NCBI GenBank assembly: GCA_008704415.1
Contig: VXIS01000047.1
Coordinates: 62,001-126,000 of the forward strand
Source: Sphaerosporella brunnea
Lineage: Eukaryota > Ascomycota > Pezizomycetes > Pezizales > Pyronemataceae
Direction: 5' to 3'
Length of the DNA stretch: 64,000 bases
A program made the translations under genes and the position numbers. How positions within the stretch are numbered: position 1 is the first letter of the stretch; each line of letters starts with the position of its first letter. Under the pieces are notes generated by a model. It saw only the letters and a program-made list of their open reading frames with translations, was not told where the DNA came from and made no database searches. Shown piece by piece: positions 29,967 through 37,291 of this stretch.

Positions 29967-30047
29967 ATGTGTGAAATAGCGGATCTTATTCGCTCACGAC
30001 AAGACTACACCCCGGCACTGAAACACGTGAGCTCTTGTCGATTGCTG
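29967..30047 (+). pseudogene. Left half of a coding repeat split by the gypsy insertion
   Basis: ATG 29967 opens 27 codons that run up to the LTR and end in ...CRLL. The frame resumes on the far side at 37121 (AQYPPPENKCVFQIMITIP...). A homologous, uninterrupted copy lies at about 43150-43345 on minus, where PALKRVIYGRLLAQ spans the junction. So this is the 5' half of a repeated coding unit disrupted by the retrotransposon. The family is unknown. Confidence 0.6.
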
Positions 30048-30084
30048 TGTGGTTTGCACGTACGGTGTAGAATATAGGAGGCAG

Positions 30085-30092
30085 TATAAAAG
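30085..30092 (+). promoter_or_regulatory. TATA box in the LTR, antisense orientation
   Basis: TATAAAAG on the plus strand, opposite to gag-pol, 251 bp upstream of the antisense gene ATG (30343). The same box at 36956-36963 in the other LTR points out of the element into flanking DNA. It fits a promoter for the antisense gene, but this is not proven. Confidence 0.5.
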
Positions 30093-30129
30093 AGAGAAGA
30101 GAGTTGTTATCCTTCAGCTACGTACTATT

Positions 30130-30152
30130 CCGGGGTATTTATTATACCCCGG
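30130..30152 (-). promoter_or_regulatory. LTR hairpin presenting AAUAAA (poly(A) hairpin)
   Basis: CCGGGGTAT and ATACCCCGG form a perfect 9-bp inverted repeat around a 5-nt loop. On the sense strand the loop plus the first stem base read AATAAA, a poly(A) signal at the hairpin tip. The same DNA (GTATAATAAATA) could double as a sense-strand TATA element. It is duplicated at 37001-37023. Confidence 0.65.
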
Positions 30153-30245
30153 TGGCAAAAGCACTATCCATATTTTCCTTTTCTCTTTTCTTTGCGGCTC
30201 CGTGATCCGTGCCACCCGAGCCGCCACCCGAGCGCCACAACCACA

Positions 30246-30257
30246 TCCTCCTCCACC
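30246..30257 (-). other. Polypurine tract
   Basis: The minus strand reads GGTGGAGGAGGA directly against the start of the 3' LTR. This is the expected position and composition of the plus-strand primer for reverse transcription. Confidence 0.85.
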
Positions 30258-30342
30258 TAAACCCCGAACAGCCCACTGTTCGAAAAACCTTTTCGCCCTT
30301 AGTCCTACCCCGACACCACACAATTCTTCGACCACCATCAAC

Positions 30343-31309
30343 ATGCTCCCTCCTTTTCGTTCCCGTAAGCGGAAGCTTGCTCAAGGTAGCTCTCTGGCAA
30401 CTCCTCCACCTGGACTGCTGCTAATTGTCGGTTGTAGTGCAAGCAGCCTATCGTGCACACCGGAAGAGGGTCACTCCTACTAAGCCACCCGTCGCCGAGC
30501 GCTCTGTCGCGGCGCGTTCTGTTGTCGAGCCATCCGTCGCCGAGCCGTCCGTCGCCGAGCCGTCCGTCGCCGAGCCGTTTGTGGAACGCGGAGCCCGTCT
30601 GTCAGAGGCTGCTAAGTTGCATGCTTTCTCCTTCCGAGACGTCACAGCACGTCCGGGACCTTGGCGCAACCTGCTACGCAGTTCCTCCCCGGTCTTGCCT
30701 TCTGCAAGCTCTAGCGAATCAGAGGAAGAATGGGGTGGTATCGTTGATGATGACACCGGGACTGCAGTCAGCGCTGAGGATGCTGAAGATACCGAAGACA
30801 CCGAGAACACTGAGGCTGCTGAGGATGCCGAGGACGCCGAGACTGTTGGGTTCTCGCCAAGCCGTACCGTTCTTCAACGGTTACGCGAGAACACCGAAAA
30901 GATCGCGCAACTATTGGAAGAGAACCGCCTCCTGCTAGCTGGTAGGGGGCTGAGTCCTGCCGCGTTGTCCGTTAAAAGGGCGAGAAGTAGGAGCATTGGA
31001 CGCTACCCTTCGTGCCCCAGGCCAAAGGTCGGCGTGTTGCCCTTGGAACGGGTCAAAGCTGAGATCCAAGAGGTGCGGGCCCAAACGAAAATGTGTGAGG
31101 CCAAGATCGTGGGCCTGTACTTGTTGGGGAGGGTCAAGCTTGGTGGAGGGATAGGCATGGTGCAGCCTAGGAGGCCGGTCTGTGAACGTTGTAAGAGGAA
31201 GGGCTTGGCCTGCTTGGAGGTGGACCGCTCAAAGGAAAAGCGGGTCTTTACCTCCTCCTGTGCTGAGTGTAAGGTAGCTGCCAGTGGTTGTAGATTTAGT
31301 GAGGCTTAG
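30343..31309 (+). CDS. Antisense zinc-cluster protein encoded inside the gypsy element (two exons, 304 aa)
   Basis: ATG 30343 starts a short basic exon (FRSRKRKLAQ, to 30385). A 52-nt intron (30386-30437) then joins in phase to exon 2 (30438-31309). Order along the protein: basic N-terminus; a short tandem repeat of SVAEP (DNA about 30525-30580); an acidic stretch (residues about 105-152) with repeated Glu-Asp pairs; a leucine-rich coiled coil (residues about 158-182, LRENTEKIAQLLEENRLLL); and a C-terminal cysteine cluster C263, C266, C273, C289, C292, C299 (CX2CX6CX15CX2CX6C). The cluster matches the six-Cys plan of fungal Zn2Cys6 binuclear clusters, with a long central loop and at the opposite end from usual. 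A nucleic-acid-binding or dimeric regulatory role is inference. It converges on pol: the stop codons are 56 bp apart. The LTR TATA box lies upstream. Confidence 0.8.
30386..30437 (+). other. Intron of the antisense gene
   Basis: 52 nt, GTAGCT...GCTAAT...TTGTAG, with a CTAAT branch word 12-16 nt before the acceptor. An alternative stronger donor GTAAGC at 30365 is in the same phase and would drop seven residues. Without splicing the long frame has no ATG, which supports the intron. Confidence 0.7.
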
Positions 31310-31365
31310 ACGGAGGGAGAGGAGTGAGAAGTAGGAAAATAGAGAATGTAAAACCAACAGTCCTT

Positions 31366-34300
31366 TTAATTAAAAGGAACCTTCTTTTTCGGTTGTTTTC
31401 GCAAGTTGTAGCTTGATGTATGTTTGCGATGTCTTTCCCCCACCTCGGAGGGAACCATGGCCGCATGGTTCGTTCCAAAGAGCTGAGGAGAGGTCTGGCT
31501 CTCTGCAGGTAAAATTGCGACGTCGGCAGCGGGTTTCGAACTCTCCGACGTACCTTGCGGAGGAGCGGTATGTGAAACCGGATCGATCATATGCGAAACG
31601 GTAGTGGCTGACATCGAAGGAGGTGGGAGGGCGGAGTTCGATGCAGCCCATTCGCGAGGTTTCGCTGAAGAAGGCTTGATGGGTCTCTCCATAGGCGCAG
31701 GTACTTTGTGAGTTTTCGCAGCCGTTTCGCGAGGTTTCGTTGAAGGGCGTTTAATATATCGTTCTGCAGTCGCAAGCTCATCGTACGTTGGCGGAACAGG
31801 ACCGTCATCTTCGAGTATTCGTTGGACTTCCTGCGATGGTGGGACAACTTGGTTACCTGCTTTGCGGAGGCCAGTCTTCATGAACGGAGAGGTCCACAGC
31901 TTGTCGACATTACCCATAATGTTGGCGCGGATTAAGCGTTGGCCATTAATTAGATTCGCGAGTGGTTTGCCGTGTGGATCAAGAAGCTGATAGGTACCTA
32001 GTGGCGAGACCATTGCGATTTTGTATGGTCCATACCATTTCGCTTCGAACTTTTGAGGTCCTTCGTGCCGAACTAGGACGTAGTCGCCAGGCTTAAAATC
32101 GTGTCGCTTAACTATCGCATCGCGAATGCGTCCTGCATTGAGTGCGCGTGTATAGATAGCTTCGTTTGCACAGGCGCGAGCATGCTGGACAGCACCCAAT
32201 CGCTGTTCTATATCTTCGAGTGAGGCTTCTAAGCCCAGCGGTTTCGCAACAGCGTCGTCCGATGGAAGGAAAGGTTGACAGCCGTAAAGCAAATAGAAAG
32301 GACTATATTTCGATGTCGCATGGACTCGAACACGGGTTGCAAATAGTGCTTGTGTCAGGTACTGGTCCCACAACCGAGTTGGTTTACCCATTAAGTATTT
32401 CGTAAGCATACCACCTAGAGTTCCATTAAGATTTTCGACCTTCCCATTGGTACGCGGGTGGTAAGGTGTCGTTGTTCGATGACGCGTGCGAAGTTTTGTC
32501 AAATAGTTTTCGACGACACCGCCGAGAAGATTTGGTCCATTATCTGAGAGCAGTTCGCGAGGTGCACCATAATTTGCGAAGATGTCATTATGTAGAAAAT
32601 CTGCAATTGTTTCCTGTTTCGCATCGGAAACAGCTTTTGCAACAGGCCATCCTGTCGCATAGTCGATAGCCGTTATGATCCATTTGTTGCCGCTAGGGGT
32701 TGTCGGAAGTTGCCCAATGAGGTCGATACCCCATCGTTCGAATGGCCGGATCGATTTCGACGCCAGATGATGAGCCGGTTCGCTTTCTTGACCTGGTCGC
32801 TGACGCTGCGAAGTCTGGCAATTAGGGCAGAAGTTGACATACGCTCGTATATCGTGTTCGATAGAGGGCCACCAGGCACGATAGCGCAACACCCCATCAA
32901 GACCCGGAAAACCCAGATGACCGTACTCGTTATGCATGCGTTCAATAGCGTCCGCACGGAACAAATAAGGGACGTAAGGAGCGGTACCAGCTTCGTCAAT
33001 TTTGCGATGCAAGGTGTCGTTAATCAAGATGAAATTAGAACGTTCGGACTGCAGCTTTTCGAGAAGCTTATGATCATCGGTAGAAATCGTACCACTTCGT
33101 AGAAATTCTTCCATATAGTCGGCCCATTCGGATGAGGCTGCTGATCGCAAAAATGCGATGAAATCAGGCCGTCTACTAATAGCATCAGGGACCACTGCAT
33201 ACTTGCCCGGGCGGTATCGAATATCCAAGTCGTATTCGGCGAATTCGTCGATCCATCGTGCGAGACGTCGCGAAGGAACTTTTGTCGTGCGAAGGTATTT
33301 CAAACTCTCGTGATCTGTTAAGACAGTCGTTGTGCAGCCATTCTCGATATAGCAACGCCAGGTGCGTAAGGCAAGCTTGATCGCAAGCAACTCCTTCTCA
33401 TGTGTTGGGTAGTTCACTTCCGCACTGGTTAAACGTTTCCCATCAAAGGCAACAGGGTGTGGACGGCCATCGACTGGTGAATCCTGAAGCAGAGTGCAAC
33501 CGACAGCGAAGTCACTTGCATCAGTTTCGATACAGAACGGTCGCGACACATCGGGCTGTGCCAGCACTGGTTCGGAGGTCAAACGATCCTTCAATTCCAT
33601 GAATGCGTTTTCGCAAGATGCGGTCCAGGCAACAGGATGATGTTTCCGCTTCCGAACTTCTTCGTCCGACTCCTTGAGCAGTTCAAATAAGGGCCCCGCA
33701 ATCGCAGCGAAGCCTTTGACAAATCGGCGATAGTAGGAGGCAAGACCAAGAAACTGACGCACCTCGTGAACGTTCGAAGGCCGGGGCCAATTCCGAATAA
33801 CAGATAACTTGTCACGGCACGGGCGCAGGGTGCCATTGCCAACAATGTGGCCACAGAATTCCAACTCAGTCGCAGCAAATGTGCATTTCGAGGGCTTAGC
33901 AATCAACTTATTCGCAGACAGAACTCGTAGAACAGCTTCGACGTGCGTACGATGGTCTTCGATAGATTCCGAATAGATTAATATGTCGTCAAGATAGACC
34001 AAAACAGACTTGTTAAGAAAAGGCTGAAGAATACTGTTCATAAGTGTTTGAAAGGTTGCTGGGGCATTGGATAAACCGAAGGGCATTGCAATGAATTCAA
34101 ATTTGCCAAAGCGAGTATTGAATGCGGTCTTCGGAATATCGGCAGGATCGATCTGGACTTGCCAGTAACCAGAGGTGAGATCGATCTTCGTCAGATATTT
34201 CGCTTTTGCCAGTCTGTCAAGACATTCCTGAATGCGTGGCAAAGGGTATCCGTTGCGTTTTGTAATTGCATTAAGTGCTCTATAATCGATGCACATTCGC

Positions 34301-35331
34301 CATTCGCCATCCTTCTTCTTTACGAAAAGTACCGGAAATCCCCAGGGGCTATCGGAAGATCGAATGAGCGATTTTTCGAGCAGAGTCATAACCTGCCGAT
34401 ATTGTTCGTCCTGGTGGGTTGGAGGCAGACGGTACGCATTAATATTGATCGGTTTCGCATTGCCGGTGTCGATTCGGTGCGTAATACTGCGTTGCGGTGG
34501 TGGACCATCTGGCAGGCTCTGGCGAAATATATGTGAAAATTGGCGAATGATATCGTTTAACTTCGAGTCAGAACAAGAGGGCAGACTGTCTACTGTGGTA
34601 TCTTTCGTTCCGTCTTCCGGTTTCAAGAAGTATAACCATGCAACGGTATCGCGCTTCCGAAGCGCACGGCGCGCTTGAGCGCCGGTGATCATATTTACTG
34701 CCTCAATCGCAGGACTCCCGATAGTACGACGTTTGTCAGGATGTCGAATCGTATGCCAGCGCCTAGAATCGTCTTTAACGCGAATTTCAAGCGTAGTCCA
34801 ATCGATTATAGGGTTCGCTTTGCGTAGCCATTCTAAACCCAAAATGATATCGACATCTGGCAGATCGAGAACACGAGCCTCAATCTGTGTCTTAAACGAA
34901 GCCAATTGGAGCGTAATCGGAGAAATACCGTAGAGCGAGACGATGGCACCGTTGGGTAAGCGGATACCATGATCATCCTCAGCAGGACGAACAGGGAGGC
35001 CCATTTTATCGACAAAGGTTTTTGAAACATAGATGCGCGATGCGCCACAATCTAACAAGACATTGGTTGGTTGACTATTAACAACACCACTCAAAAAGCA
35101 TAGGTTCGTATTGGGGGATTTTGCTGGCTGCTGAGTTAGGACACACAAGCGTTCCGGCAGGTACGAAAGCCATTCGCCATGTATGTCTGCCGGTGCGCAC
35201 GCATTCGGCGATGTCGCAGAAGTAGCGTTGTCAATTTTGCTGGCGGCCGATGGCAGTTGTGGACCGTACGCTTCCGCCTTTACGCACGGCCCGTCCCTTT
35301 TTCCGCCGTCTCCGATTCCGATTCGCAGTCG
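31366..35331 (-). CDS. pol: Pol polyprotein: protease, reverse transcriptase, RNase H, integrase
   Basis: Open from 35331 to TAA at 31366, with no ATG near its start, so it is expressed by a -1 shift from gag. Numbering from the codon at 35148: protease LLDCGAS at 31-37 (Cys at the usual Ser/Thr position) and ILGLEWL at about 102; RT with CIDYRALN at about 287 and catalytic YLDD at 385-388; RNase H with TDASDF (D543), E585, D612 and D655; integrase with zinc-binding H739/H744/C774/C777, then D809, D869 and E905 (DD35E), and the GPY/F-type KWYGPYKI at about 1037. The last 170 residues are a Pro/Lys-rich tail with a duplicated PSxKPRExAA motif. I see no chromodomain. All catalytic residues are present, so the protein is predicted active. 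Confidence 0.95.
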   Translation of the reverse strand, partial: RLRIGIGDGGKRDGPCVKAEAYGPQLPSAASKIDNATSATSPNACAPADIHGEWLSYLPERLCVLTQQPAKSPNTNLCFLSGVVNSQPTNVLLDCGASRIYVSKTFVDKMGLPVRPAEDDHGIRLPNGAIVSLYGISPITLQLASFKTQIEARVLDLPDVDIILGLEWLRKANPIIDWTTLEIRVKDDSRRWHTIRHPDKRRTIGSPAIEAVNMITGAQARRALRKRDTVAWLYFLKPEDGTKDTTVDSLPSCSDSKLNDIIRQFSHIFRQSLPDGPPPQRSITHRIDTGNAKPININAYRLPPTHQDEQYRQVMTLLEKSLIRSSDSPWGFPVLFVKKKDGEWRMCIDYRALNAITKRNGYPLPRIQECLDRLAKAKYLTKIDLTSGYWQVQIDPADIPKTAFNTRFGKFEFIAMPFGLSNAPATFQTLMNSILQPFLNKSVLVYLDDILIYSESIEDHRTHVEAVLRVLSANKLIAKPSKCTFAATELEFCGHIVGNGTLRPCRDKLSVIRNWPRPSNVHEVRQFLGLASYYRRFVKGFAAIAGPLFELLKESDEEVRKRKHHPVAWTASCENAFMELKDRLTSEPVLAQPDVSRPFCIETDASDFAVGCTLLQDSPVDGRPHPVAFDGKRLTSAEVNYPTHEKELLAIKLALRTWRCYIENGCTTTVLTDHESLKYLRTTKVPSRRLARWIDEFAEYDLDIRYRPGKYAVVPDAISRRPDFIAFLRSAASSEWADYMEEFLRSGTISTDDHKLLEKLQSERSNFILINDTLHRKIDEAGTAPYVPYLFRADAIERMHNEYGHLGFPGLDGVLRYRAWWPSIEHDIRAYVNFCPNCQTSQRQRPGQESEPAHHLASKSIRPFERWGIDLIGQLPTTPSGNKWIITAIDYATGWPVAKAVSDAKQETIADFLHNDIFANYGAPRELLSDNGPNLLGGVVENYLTKLRTRHRTTTPYHPRTNGKVENLNGTLGGMLTKYLMGKPTRLWDQYLTQALFATRVRVHATSKYSPFYLLYGCQPFLPSDDAVAKPLGLEASLEDIEQRLGAVQHARACANEAIYTRALNAGRIRDAIVKRHDFKPGDYVLVRHEGPQKFEAKWYGPYKIAMVSPLGTYQLLDPHGKPLANLINGQRLIRANIMGNVDKLWTSPFMKTGLRKAGNQVVPPSQEVQRILEDDGPVPPTYDELATAERYIKRPSTKPRETAAKTHKVPAPMERPIKPSSAKPREWAASNSALPPPSMSATTVSHMIDPVSHTAPPQGTSESSKPAADVAILPAESQTSPQLFGTNHAAMVPSEVGERHRKHTSSYNLRKQPKKKVPFN
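35280..35331 (-). promoter_or_regulatory. gag-pol overlap with candidate -1 frameshift site
   Basis: The pol frame is open 52 nt into gag. The minus strand has GCG GAA AAA GGG in the gag frame (A run at 35298-35302). Slipping back one base keeps AAA pairing in the A site. It is not a canonical X_XXY_YYZ heptamer. No other slippery sequence lies in the overlap, and pol has no start codon of its own here. Confidence 0.5.
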
Positions 35332-36542
35332 CTATAGAGCACGGCATCATCGCCATCGTACTCAGATTCGCGAACATGTAAGGTCACTTCTTTCACATTG
35401 TTAATAGAATCGCCCGATTTCGAGCAGTTGCGGCTACTATGGCCCTTGTTTCCACAGAAAAAGCAGCGTCGCTCCTCCGAGCACCACCGCTTCCATTCTG
35501 GTGTGCCTTTGCGTAGTCCATTGGAGCCAATTCGATCCTTACTGGTGCTCGCGCTCGACGGTTTATCATTGCGTGGTTTCGAATCGCGAGTTTCATCTCC
35601 GTAAGAACGCTGTCCATGGTTTCCATTTGAAAGGCGATTATGGAGTTCAAGTCTCATGCGCTGGCGGGAATACCAGTGATTGTCGATACGATCGCACAGT
35701 TCGATGAAATCGAATAGATTGTCCGGTAGGTCGTAAATCTTATACAGTTCGTCCAAAACATGATCACGTAGTCCACTCTTGAATCGGTGCAAAATTTCGT
35801 AATCCGGAGGTCGTTGCTTCAGCTGATCGGCCAAGTCAAGCAAATCGACAGCGTATTCTCGAACAGATCGCGTCTGTCGCAGACGGTCATACTTCTGTCT
35901 AGTTCGTTCGTCGGCATTGTAATCGGTGCACTGTATCCGAATAATACGAAAGAAATCTTCCAAAGAGCGTATTTGCATGCGCCCGTCCGTATCCGTTTCC
36001 ATAAGTCGCTTCCTGACGTTCCAGATCTTGCGGGCACGTCCGGTTAATCGATTAGCTGCAATTTGTATCTTTTCGCCCTCAGATCGGAAGGCACCACGGG
36101 CCGCATAGAATTCGATATAATCTCGCATTTCGGAGATCCAATCCTCGCATGCGGTTCCTGAGCGTCGGCCATCGTATTTTTCAGGCATGCTCAAACGCAG
36201 TTCCGGAACTGCCGCAGTGTTTCCAAACCGTAAAGGTTGCGGTACTTGCGTATCATATGTCGATACAGGATTGCAAGGTTCCAGTGAAGGAGCTCGTACA
36301 CTTGTCGATGTGTCCATCGGGGTCGGGCTTCGTTCGTTATGATTCGGCGTCGGCAAGGAAAGATTCTGCATTTGATCGGCAAGCGCGTCAAGATGCTCAG
36401 CGGTGATTGGGTCCGTGTGGTGCGCGCGATTAACCATGGCCGGTGCGGGGCTGTTTGGGGGTGATGATGGTACGAGGCATGCCGGTGCGGCTGCGGCATC
36501 AGATAGGCTCATGGCCACGGACATCTGCTGACGATCGCTCAT
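35280..36542 (-). CDS. gag: Gag structural protein, 420 aa
   Basis: The ATG at 36542-36540 is the first in frame; the reading frame is open about 57 codons further upstream but without ATG. Residues 1-110 are Ala/Ser/Pro rich. The capsid-like helical core (about 115-310) contains the retrotransposon-gag signature region (CEDWISEMRDYIEFYAARG; LADQLKQRPPDYEILHRF). A basic Ser-rich linker leads to a CCHC zinc knuckle at C360-C373 (CFFCGNKGHSSRNC), which binds RNA in this family. The tail is acidic. The stop at 35280 overlaps pol in the -1 register. It is undamaged and normal in length for gypsy Gag. Confidence 0.92.
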   Translation of the reverse strand: MSDRQQMSVAMSLSDAAAAPACLVPSSPPNSPAPAMVNRAHHTDPITAEHLDALADQMQNLSLPTPNHNERSPTPMDTSTSVRAPSLEPCNPVSTYDTQVPQPLRFGNTAAVPELRLSMPEKYDGRRSGTACEDWISEMRDYIEFYAARGAFRSEGEKIQIAANRLTGRARKIWNVRKRLMETDTDGRMQIRSLEDFFRIIRIQCTDYNADERTRQKYDRLRQTRSVREYAVDLLDLADQLKQRPPDYEILHRFKSGLRDHVLDELYKIYDLPDNLFDFIELCDRIDNHWYSRQRMRLELHNRLSNGNHGQRSYGDETRDSKPRNDKPSSASTSKDRIGSNGLRKGTPEWKRWCSEERRCFFCGNKGHSSRNCSKSGDSINNVKEVTLHVRESEYDGDDAVLYSDCESESETAEKGTGRA

Positions 36543-36564
36543 GTTTCTACAAGTTTCGGCGTTG

Positions 36565-36777
36565 GCGGTTCGATTTCTGCGGCTGCTCCAAGGCCACTCC
36601 CAGTTATACTGGCGGGTCGGTCTCCTACTACTGAAGACACCCGGAACGTGTAATTTCGGAACGAACTGATCGGTCGCGAAATGGTTCGATCCTTTGTGGC
36701 TACTCCAGGCCACTCCCAGCTATACTGGCGGGTCGGTCTTACTCACTGGAGACACCCGGAACTCAATTTCGACGCTG
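36565..36777 (-). repeat. Duplicated ~90-bp block in the element leader
   Basis: 36565-36655 and 36682-36777 share most positions, including GGCCACTCCCAG and TATACTGGCGGGTCGGTC and then GACACCCGGAAC on plus. They sit between the primer-binding site and gag, where packaging or translation signals would be expected (inference). The copies are about 117 bp apart. Confidence 0.8.
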
Positions 36778-36810
36778 GCCTACAATGGCCACTCAAGATA
36801 ACGGTGCGAA

Positions 36811-36867
36811 AGTTGTTCGAAAACGAAGAAGGAAAAGTTGTTCGAAAACGAAGAAGGAAAAGTCGTT
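36811..36867 (-). repeat. 25-bp tandem repeat in the element leader
   Basis: Perfect copies at 36811-36835 and 36836-36860, with a 7-bp partial third copy. The unit contains TTGTTCGAAAACGAAGAAGG. It lies upstream of the duplicated block and downstream of the primer-binding site in the sense direction. Confidence 0.85.
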
Positions 36868-36900
36868 GAAGCGCAAGGGTTCAAGGAGGTTGTTGTCGAA

Positions 36901-36916
36901 CTCGGTGCTGCTACCA
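36901..36916 (-). other. Primer-binding site
   Basis: Two bases inside the 5' LTR the minus strand reads TGGTAGCAGCACCGAG. It starts with TGG (complement of the tRNA CCA end). The TGGTAGC start is the one seen in yeast Ty elements primed by initiator tRNA-Met, so that tRNA is the likely primer (inference). Confidence 0.65.
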
Positions 36917-36918
36917 AA

Positions 36919-37116
36919 TGTGGTTTGCACGTACGGTGTAGAATATAGGAGGCAGTATAAAAGAGAGAAGAGAGTTGTTATCCTTCAGCTACGTACTATT
37001 CCGGGGTATTTATTATACCCCGGTGGCAAAAGCACTATCCATATTTTCCTTTTCTCTTTTCTTTGCGGCTCCGTGATCCGTGCCACCCGAGCCGCCACCC
37101 GAGCGCCACAACCACA
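36919..37116 (-). repeat. 5' LTR of the gypsy element
   Basis: 198 bp, identical by eye to the 3' LTR. It holds the hairpin (37001-37023) and, on plus, a TATAAAAG (36956-36963) directed outward into 37117 onward. Confidence 0.95.
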
Positions 37117-37291
37117 GCTGGCTCAGTATCCGCCGCCAGAGAACAAGTGTGTTTTCCAGATAATGATTACAATACCGAAGGTCAGAAATTCTGTGGACAT
37201 AGGTTCCTGTATACATGCGCGTGTTCGCCACATCAAACAGTCAAGTTCCGGAGATATTCTTGGAATCTGCGTTTCAGCGTGCTTGATATGA
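37117..37291 (+). pseudogene. Right half of the coding repeat split by the gypsy element
   Basis: Begins with the duplicated GCTG target site. From 37121 the frame left off at 30047 resumes for 56 codons (VFQIMITIPKVRNSVDIG; RHIKQSSSGDILGIC) to TGA 37289-37291. Its DNA aligns with the minus strand of about 43150-43300. The family is unknown. Confidence 0.6.

Follow-up and report, generated by a model that had tools for sequence, protein, structure and literature searches.

The ectomycorrhizal Pezizales fungus Sphaerosporella brunnea (assembly of 50.6 Mb) carries a low-copy Ty3/gypsy retrotransposon family with a genuine accessory gene, whose coding structure is intact in both of the full-length copies that we found. 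Purifying selection acts on the central part of the gene, and there is little doubt that the feature as a whole is a real protein-coding gene under selection. The first-pass annotation of the window (the 64,000-nt stretch of DNA analyzed) had placed a two-exon gene antisense to gag-pol, between pol and the 3' LTR of a gypsy element. This location was confirmed, and the coordinates given for the gene were exact (ATG at 30343, intron at 30386-30437, stop ending at 31309).

The carrier also proved to be as intact as had been claimed. It is a 7.07-kb element (Table 1) whose two 198-bp LTRs are 100% identical to each other and have TG...CA termini. GCTG duplications flank the element, which retains sites resembling a primer-binding site (PBS) and a polypurine tract (PPT), along with gag and pol. 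The sequence TGGTAGCAGCACC (36904..36916) is presumably an initiator-Met-like primer-binding site. A Retrotrans_gag domain was identified in gag, together with a CCHC-knuckle match of 17.9 bits, under that family's cut-off of 20.8; no chromodomain was listed for gag or pol (Pfam, E up to 0.01). The pol frame is open over 1321 aa, extending upstream of the first listed start, and overlaps the end of gag (35280-35331) in a different frame. This overlap suggests that Gag-Pol could be produced by frameshifting.

Table 1. Features of the element and its antisense gene, in window coordinates.
Feature	Position	Strand	Basis or remark
Target-site duplication GCTG	left 30044..30047, right 37117-37120	.	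flanking sequence
Ty3/gypsy LTR retrotransposon (gag, PR-RT-RH-INT)	30048..37116	-	identical LTRs and Pfam on gag/pol, E up to 0.01
3' LTR, upstream of antisense gene	30048..30245	-	direct repeat and LTR alignments
TATAAAA in 3' LTR, candidate promoter of antisense gene	30085..30091	+	retained in 2/8 aligned LTR rows
LTR inverted repeat CCGGGGTAT-N5-ATACCCCGG, contains CGG-N15-CCG	30130..30152	.	9-bp arms; conserved in family LTRs
Polypurine tract AGGTGGAGGAGGA (one T), adjoins 3' LTR	30246..30258	-	by eye
Exon 1 (ATG, basic segment); alternative end 30364	30343..30385	+	deposited gene models, translation
Intron, 52 nt (73 nt with donor GTAAGC at 30365); CTAAT branch-point-like, acceptor TTGTAG	30386..30437	+	deposited models, sequence
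Exon 2 (repeats, acidic block, coiled-coil candidate, Cys cluster, stop)	30438..31309	+	translation; dN/dS 0.29
Mosaic block	30480..31016	+	90/537 mismatches to C134 vs about 2% elsewhere; 0/300 permutations as strong
15-nt (SVAEP) tandem repeats	30483..30587	+	region 153 nt longer in C134
Acidic region, S/E-rich EWGG motif common to P0005	30695..30853	+	alignment, charge
Leucine-rich helix, residues 154-183, coiled-coil candidate	30854..30943	+	AlphaFold helix 157-183, central block pLDDT 84-87
CX2CX6CX15CX2CX6C, residues 263-299	31181..31291	+	invariant in 4/4 sequences
pol (protease, RT, RNase H, integrase)	31366..35148	-	ORF and Pfam
gag	35280..36713	-	ORF and Pfam
Primer-binding-site-like sequence, 2 nt from 5' LTR	36904..36916	-	flanking sequence
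5' LTR	36919..37116	-	direct repeat

We identified one other full-length copy in the genome, on contig C134 (locus L012), flanked by CATA on both sides and with LTRs that are 98.5% identical. In this copy two frameshifts and a stop interrupt pol, and gag terminates prematurely. The other family remains are LTR pieces on contigs C91, C425, C80, C258 and C138 and a decayed fragment on C135. A C-terminal pol query matched the genome with high identity in the two full copies only, the other 40 matches having at most 31% identity. The family is low-copy, and the identical LTRs of the window copy mark a recent insertion. Two loci of the family have neighbors of a different kind. At L026 (G000:C425:19389-19536), a family LTR and the adjoining PBS sequence lie beside a gypsy RT motif recognized by eye (YLDDILIYSD), and the LTR has probably inserted into another gypsy pol. 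Beside the C134 copy (L012, 53-1063) lies a 336-aa ORF of unassigned type, transposase-like by eye only.

The spliced product of the antisense gene (304 aa) is the same, from first residue to last, as a deposited S. brunnea model, the hypothetical protein FN846DRAFT_1005921 (P0002). The deposited models disagree on the donor site. P0002 uses GTAGCT at 30386, whereas the model for the C134 copy (P0003) uses GTAAGC, equivalent to 30365, a choice that shortens the N-terminus by the basic stretch RKRKLAQ; the difference may reflect alternative splicing or noise in the annotation. Read unspliced from the ATG at 30343, the frame meets a stop after 46 codons. The first Met of the exon-2 frame is at position 223 of 294 in the window and 247 of 355 in the C134 copy. 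Because this frame has no earlier Met, the selected central part can be translated only through splicing, a frameshift or a non-AUG start. The window and C134 copies have 0 mismatches across 30348-30467, and both donors, the CTAAT and the TTGTAG are identical. The partial relic on C135 has GTG for ATG and GCAAGC for GTAAGC and retains GTAGCT, CTAAT and TTGTAG. Splicing of the antisense gene is thus very likely. Furthermore, the intron had been expected to persist after retrotransposition, and the C134 copy has it. It would make the antisense RNA unmistakable in stranded RNA-seq, for which data from the same strain, Sb_GMNB300, are public (SRP214822, SRP215074; PMC6908789).

One line of evidence for a protein product comes from the C134 copy, where, despite the broken gag and pol, the antisense reading frame has stayed open and encodes 365 aa when spliced as in the window. 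Exon 2 of the two copies differs by 43.5 synonymous and 42.5 non-synonymous changes, with 43 of the 86 at third codon positions, giving a dS of 0.236, a dN of 0.068 and, from this single pair of intact copies, a dN/dS of 0.29 (p = 3e-8 in the coding frame). The corresponding ratios within the element are 0.21 for gag and 0.27 for pol (trimmed at frameshifts). Judged by the criteria for an aORF-3R, the gene lies antisense to gag-pol between pol and the 3' LTR, is present in 2/2 of the full-length copies found in the assembly and shows coding conservation comparable to that of gag and pol. The three ORF indels between the copies (153, 12 and 18 nt in the alignment used) are all multiples of 3. 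Decay or absence of the ORF in every other copy would have spoken against the gene; the C134 ORF is intact with a dN/dS below 1, and the partial relic on C135 has decayed.

Among the other five frames of exon 2, three had no significant bias and one was nominally biased the opposite way, with dN above dS (p = 0.03). A sense-strand overlapping ORF was considered for the -1 frame, which has a dN/dS of 0.37 (p = 2e-5), but this frame is interrupted by 3 stops in one copy and 2 in the other, and its low ratio is expected because third positions coincide. A chance ORF is ruled out by the selection in one frame, the in-frame indels and the existence of relatives. It is also highly unlikely that the antisense RNA itself is the functional product, acting as dsRNA or through transcription interference with the ORF incidental. 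The convergent arrangement of pol and the antisense gene, with stops 56 bases apart, would suit such a role, and protein-less antisense RNAs are described in other retroelements (PMC7264820). Nevertheless, a dN/dS of 0.29 in one frame, in-frame indels and Cys residues conserved in distant relatives argue for a protein.

The relatives are few. The matches listed in protein searches, the first of which scored the best 7997 candidates by common words, comprised only two proteins from S. brunnea and, from metagenomes, P0004 (84% identity over 56% of the query) and P0005 (46% over 69%), the latter two encoded on contigs of 1471 and 7168 bp, respectively. No Botrytis protein was among these matches, and none of 86 pattern matches in IMG/VR was confirmed as a relative. 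Identity to P0005 is 35/47 in the Cys region, 36/54 in the preceding domain, 22/53 in the acidic region and 14/30 in the coil. The last 104 codons have 7 differences between the window and C134 copies and give no constraint signal (dS 0.021, dN 0.023). Because changes between the copies are so few in this part, the case for constraint on the Cys cluster comes from P0005.

A protein search of the genome matched at three places, one of them the window gene and the other two within the C134 copy, and revealed no host homolog outside the element. Furthermore, a survey of 34 other gypsy loci (7 of 8.7-9.5 kb and 27 of about 2-3.4 kb, with some truncated at the end of a contig) found no ORF of at least 80 aa with two exact CX2CX6C units and one ORF with a single unit. 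The survey was limited in relation to the genome, which has at least 150 RT places among 402 candidates. With no other homolog in the genome and no two-unit ORF in the 34 loci, we rejected a host gene or a common gypsy feature as the identity of the ORF. An intron retained in the antisense orientation could be that of a captured genomic gene, travelling with the element as cargo of no benefit to it. We regard this origin as most unlikely, given the absence of a host-genome homolog beyond the element, the ORF kept in both full copies and the relatives in metagenomes.

The encoded protein has the layout described in the first-pass annotation: a basic N-terminus, SVAEP repeats, an acidic region, a leucine-rich helix and a terminal CX2CX6CX15CX2CX6C. 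Its net charge by successive segments is +10 (N-terminus, residues 1-30), +1, -20 (residues 101-153), +1 (coil), +11 and +6. The domain between the coil and the Cys cluster is basic and conserved, and two further Cys (residues 207 and 234) bring to eight the C-terminal Cys that are invariant in 4/4 sequences. AlphaFold2, run with an input of 4 sequences, returned two low-confidence models (mean pLDDT of 49.5 and 42.1), in which the Cys-cluster block reached a pLDDT of 45-60 and 35-49, respectively. The best match to solved structures had an E of 1.1.

Zn2Cys6 domains (PF00172) follow the spacing CX2CX6CXnCX2CX6-8C, and the 4/4 sequences conform to it with n = 15. Zn_clus (PF00172) and DUF3716 (PF12511) were both listed for all four sequences at E up to 10. 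However, Zn_clus scored 9.1 bits against a cut-off of 21 (best E over the four sequences, 0.027), and DUF3716, which the Cys region resembles over positions 11-54 of 59, scored 13.5 bits against a cut-off of 22. Membership in either family was dropped because the scores are under the curated cut-offs. The term 'zinc cluster' in the first-pass annotation denotes resemblance only. The accompanying statement that Zn2Cys6 clusters usually lie near the N-terminus needs qualifying as well, as yeast Ume6 is said to be a precedent for a C-terminal one. A genome scan with DUF3716 gave nothing above the cut-off and carries little weight, since the window gene itself was also unlisted; a literature search on DUF3716 returned no paper.

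The 9 Pfam families listed for the four sequences at E up to 10 do not include PF04195 (Retand TRP28), and no bZIP or SMC family was listed for the protein at the same threshold. Nor do the families listed offer any resemblance to a known suppressor of silencing, which makes it distinctly unlikely that the protein protects the family against silencing by host RNAi or at the chromatin level. Such protection would be consistent with a family that persists at low copy and has inserted recently, as its identical LTRs indicate. Furthermore, convergent sense and antisense transcription should give dsRNA, against which an antagonist would be useful.

Part of the antisense gene appears to have a separate history. 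A scan of the window against the C134 copy (L012) delimited a 537-bp mosaic block with 17% divergence over a 2% background, and an interval drawn by eye (30480-31010) has 89/531 mismatches versus 118/6507 in the remainder. The dS values are 0.05 for gag and 0.04 for pol and range from 0.24 to 0.48 for the gene parts inside the block, where the alignment is less secure owing to the acidic repeats. Template switching that likely imported the block from an older, unseen lineage of the family is the simplest explanation. Because the block ends within the gene on both sides, parts of the protein would have been exchanged.

Both this block and a CGG/CCG-armed palindrome in the LTRs are newly reported here. 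The same palindrome is present in the 5' LTR at 37001-37023. The 50.6-Mb genome has 6 exact matches to it, all in family LTRs, versus 0 for the reversed control, and relaxing the spacing added none. Only 7 of 2000 first-order Markov sequences modeled on the LTR reached 9-bp arms. Across 8 aligned LTR rows, the arms are 9 bp in 6/8 and 6 bp in 2/8, and one of the former, the C138 LTR, has an added G and C at matching places in both arms, which keeps the pairing. Zn2Cys6 dimers typically recognize CGG pairs and dimerize via a coiled coil (PMC5559640), and we hypothesize that CGG-N15-CCG could suit a Zn2Cys6-type protein that reads CGG pairs. That the palindrome is the binding site of the antisense protein is nonetheless unlikely, and a role as an RNA hairpin or as a component of the promoter core is just as possible. 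The TATAAAA on the antisense strand of the LTR was dropped as proof of a promoter, as just 2/8 LTR rows retain it.

Our preferred interpretation, held with somewhat less than even confidence, is that the protein is a nuclear nucleic-acid-binding regulator of the element, with control of the LTR as its most likely task. Antisense transcription would begin next to, and probably within, the 3' LTR, and one splice would join the AUG to the main reading frame. The basic N-terminus may then carry the protein into the nucleus, where the leucine-rich helix would mediate dimerization, the C-terminal Cys cluster would bind nucleic acid and the acidic block could serve as a regulatory surface. In this way the protein would control transcription from the element's own LTR, as HBZ does for HTLV-1, with the family-specific palindrome as the first candidate binding site. 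In a more specific version, which we consider rather unlikely, a dimeric Cys-cluster protein reads the private CGG/CCG palindrome, has its effector part swapped between lineages by recombination and is a non-retroviral counterpart of HBZ.

The same basic N-terminus and Cys cluster could belong to an accessory packaging or nuclear-import factor, that is, a nucleic-acid chaperone or NLS carrier for the element's RNA, cDNA or integration complex. Nuclear roles have been proposed for such ORFs and the Grande product is nuclear (PMC7264820). Yet gag already has its own CCHC-knuckle match, the 53-residue acidic block suits a regulator better and a separate antisense RNA source would not follow Gag-Pol stoichiometry. 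We therefore rate a packaging or import factor as unlikely and favor the regulator. For the study of antisense accessory genes, this retrotransposon has the advantages of small size, a defined protein with relatives, evidence of selection and a candidate DNA site.

Zhao et al. (2011) reportedly described Boty-like retrotransposons with an antisense gene, brtn, in Botrytis cinerea. The view in the first-pass annotation that antisense ORFs of gypsy elements are documented mainly in some plant lineages needs correcting, as the fungal Boty brtn is also known (PMC7264820, PMC8365987, PMC4227169). Grande, RIRE2, Retand, PvRetro13 and Boty all have ORFs of this kind, antisense and situated between pol and the 3' LTR, according to a review that gives their function as not known, mentions proposals of nuclear regulatory or dsRNA roles and invites a search for antisense and spliced transcripts (PMC7264820). 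Like the S. brunnea gene, brtn is additional to the usual genes of a fungal LTR element and lies antisense in the interval from pol to the 3' LTR (PMC7264820). A CHROMO domain is part of the published description of a Boty-like element (PMC4227169), whereas none was listed in the S. brunnea element, a comparison made by description only.

The plant antisense ORFs (Grande gene23, RIRE2, Retand TRP28/PF04195 and PvRetro13) share with the S. brunnea gene their position, orientation, presence in most copies and a proposed nuclear or DNA-binding role (PMC7264820, PMC11963269). Tandem repeats in the gene region are another common trait, found in about half of the Retand elements studied (PMC7264820, PMC11963269). 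The proteins themselves are different, as neither TRP28 nor SMC was listed for the S. brunnea protein, which contains a hexacysteine cluster and whose gene depends on splicing. The main text of the plant paper PMC11963269 never uses the word 'intron'. Among the literature matches listed (titles and abstract openings, with subscription papers mostly uncovered, hence a weak absence), there was no spliced antisense Cys-cluster gene from a fungal gypsy element. The S. brunnea gene, which encodes a spliced acidic, coiled-coil, Cys-cluster protein, is new within the known class of antisense accessory ORFs.

Gal4-type Zn2Cys6 regulators, whose typical sites are CGG pairs (PMC5559640), share the CX2CX6C...CX2CX6C spacing, basic residues in the first half of the cluster and a coiled-coil candidate. 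The S. brunnea protein differs from them in its score under the Pfam cut-off, the C-terminal position of the cluster after the coil and the two additional invariant Cys. HBZ of HTLV-1 is translated from a spliced antisense RNA and represses transcription from the 5' LTR (PMC10186651). HBZ and APH-2/3/4 resemble the S. brunnea gene, as modeled here, in antisense transcription from the 3' LTR end and in splicing that alters the N-terminus, and HBZ combines an N-terminal activation domain with a C-terminal interaction domain (PMC10186651). However, HBZ is a bZIP protein of an animal retrovirus, whereas the S. brunnea protein has a Cys cluster and belongs to a fungal retrotransposon; we propose a functional analogy only and claim no homology. 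If the HBZ-like model is true, a fungal retrotransposon and a primate retrovirus would have evolved antisense self-regulation independently of each other.
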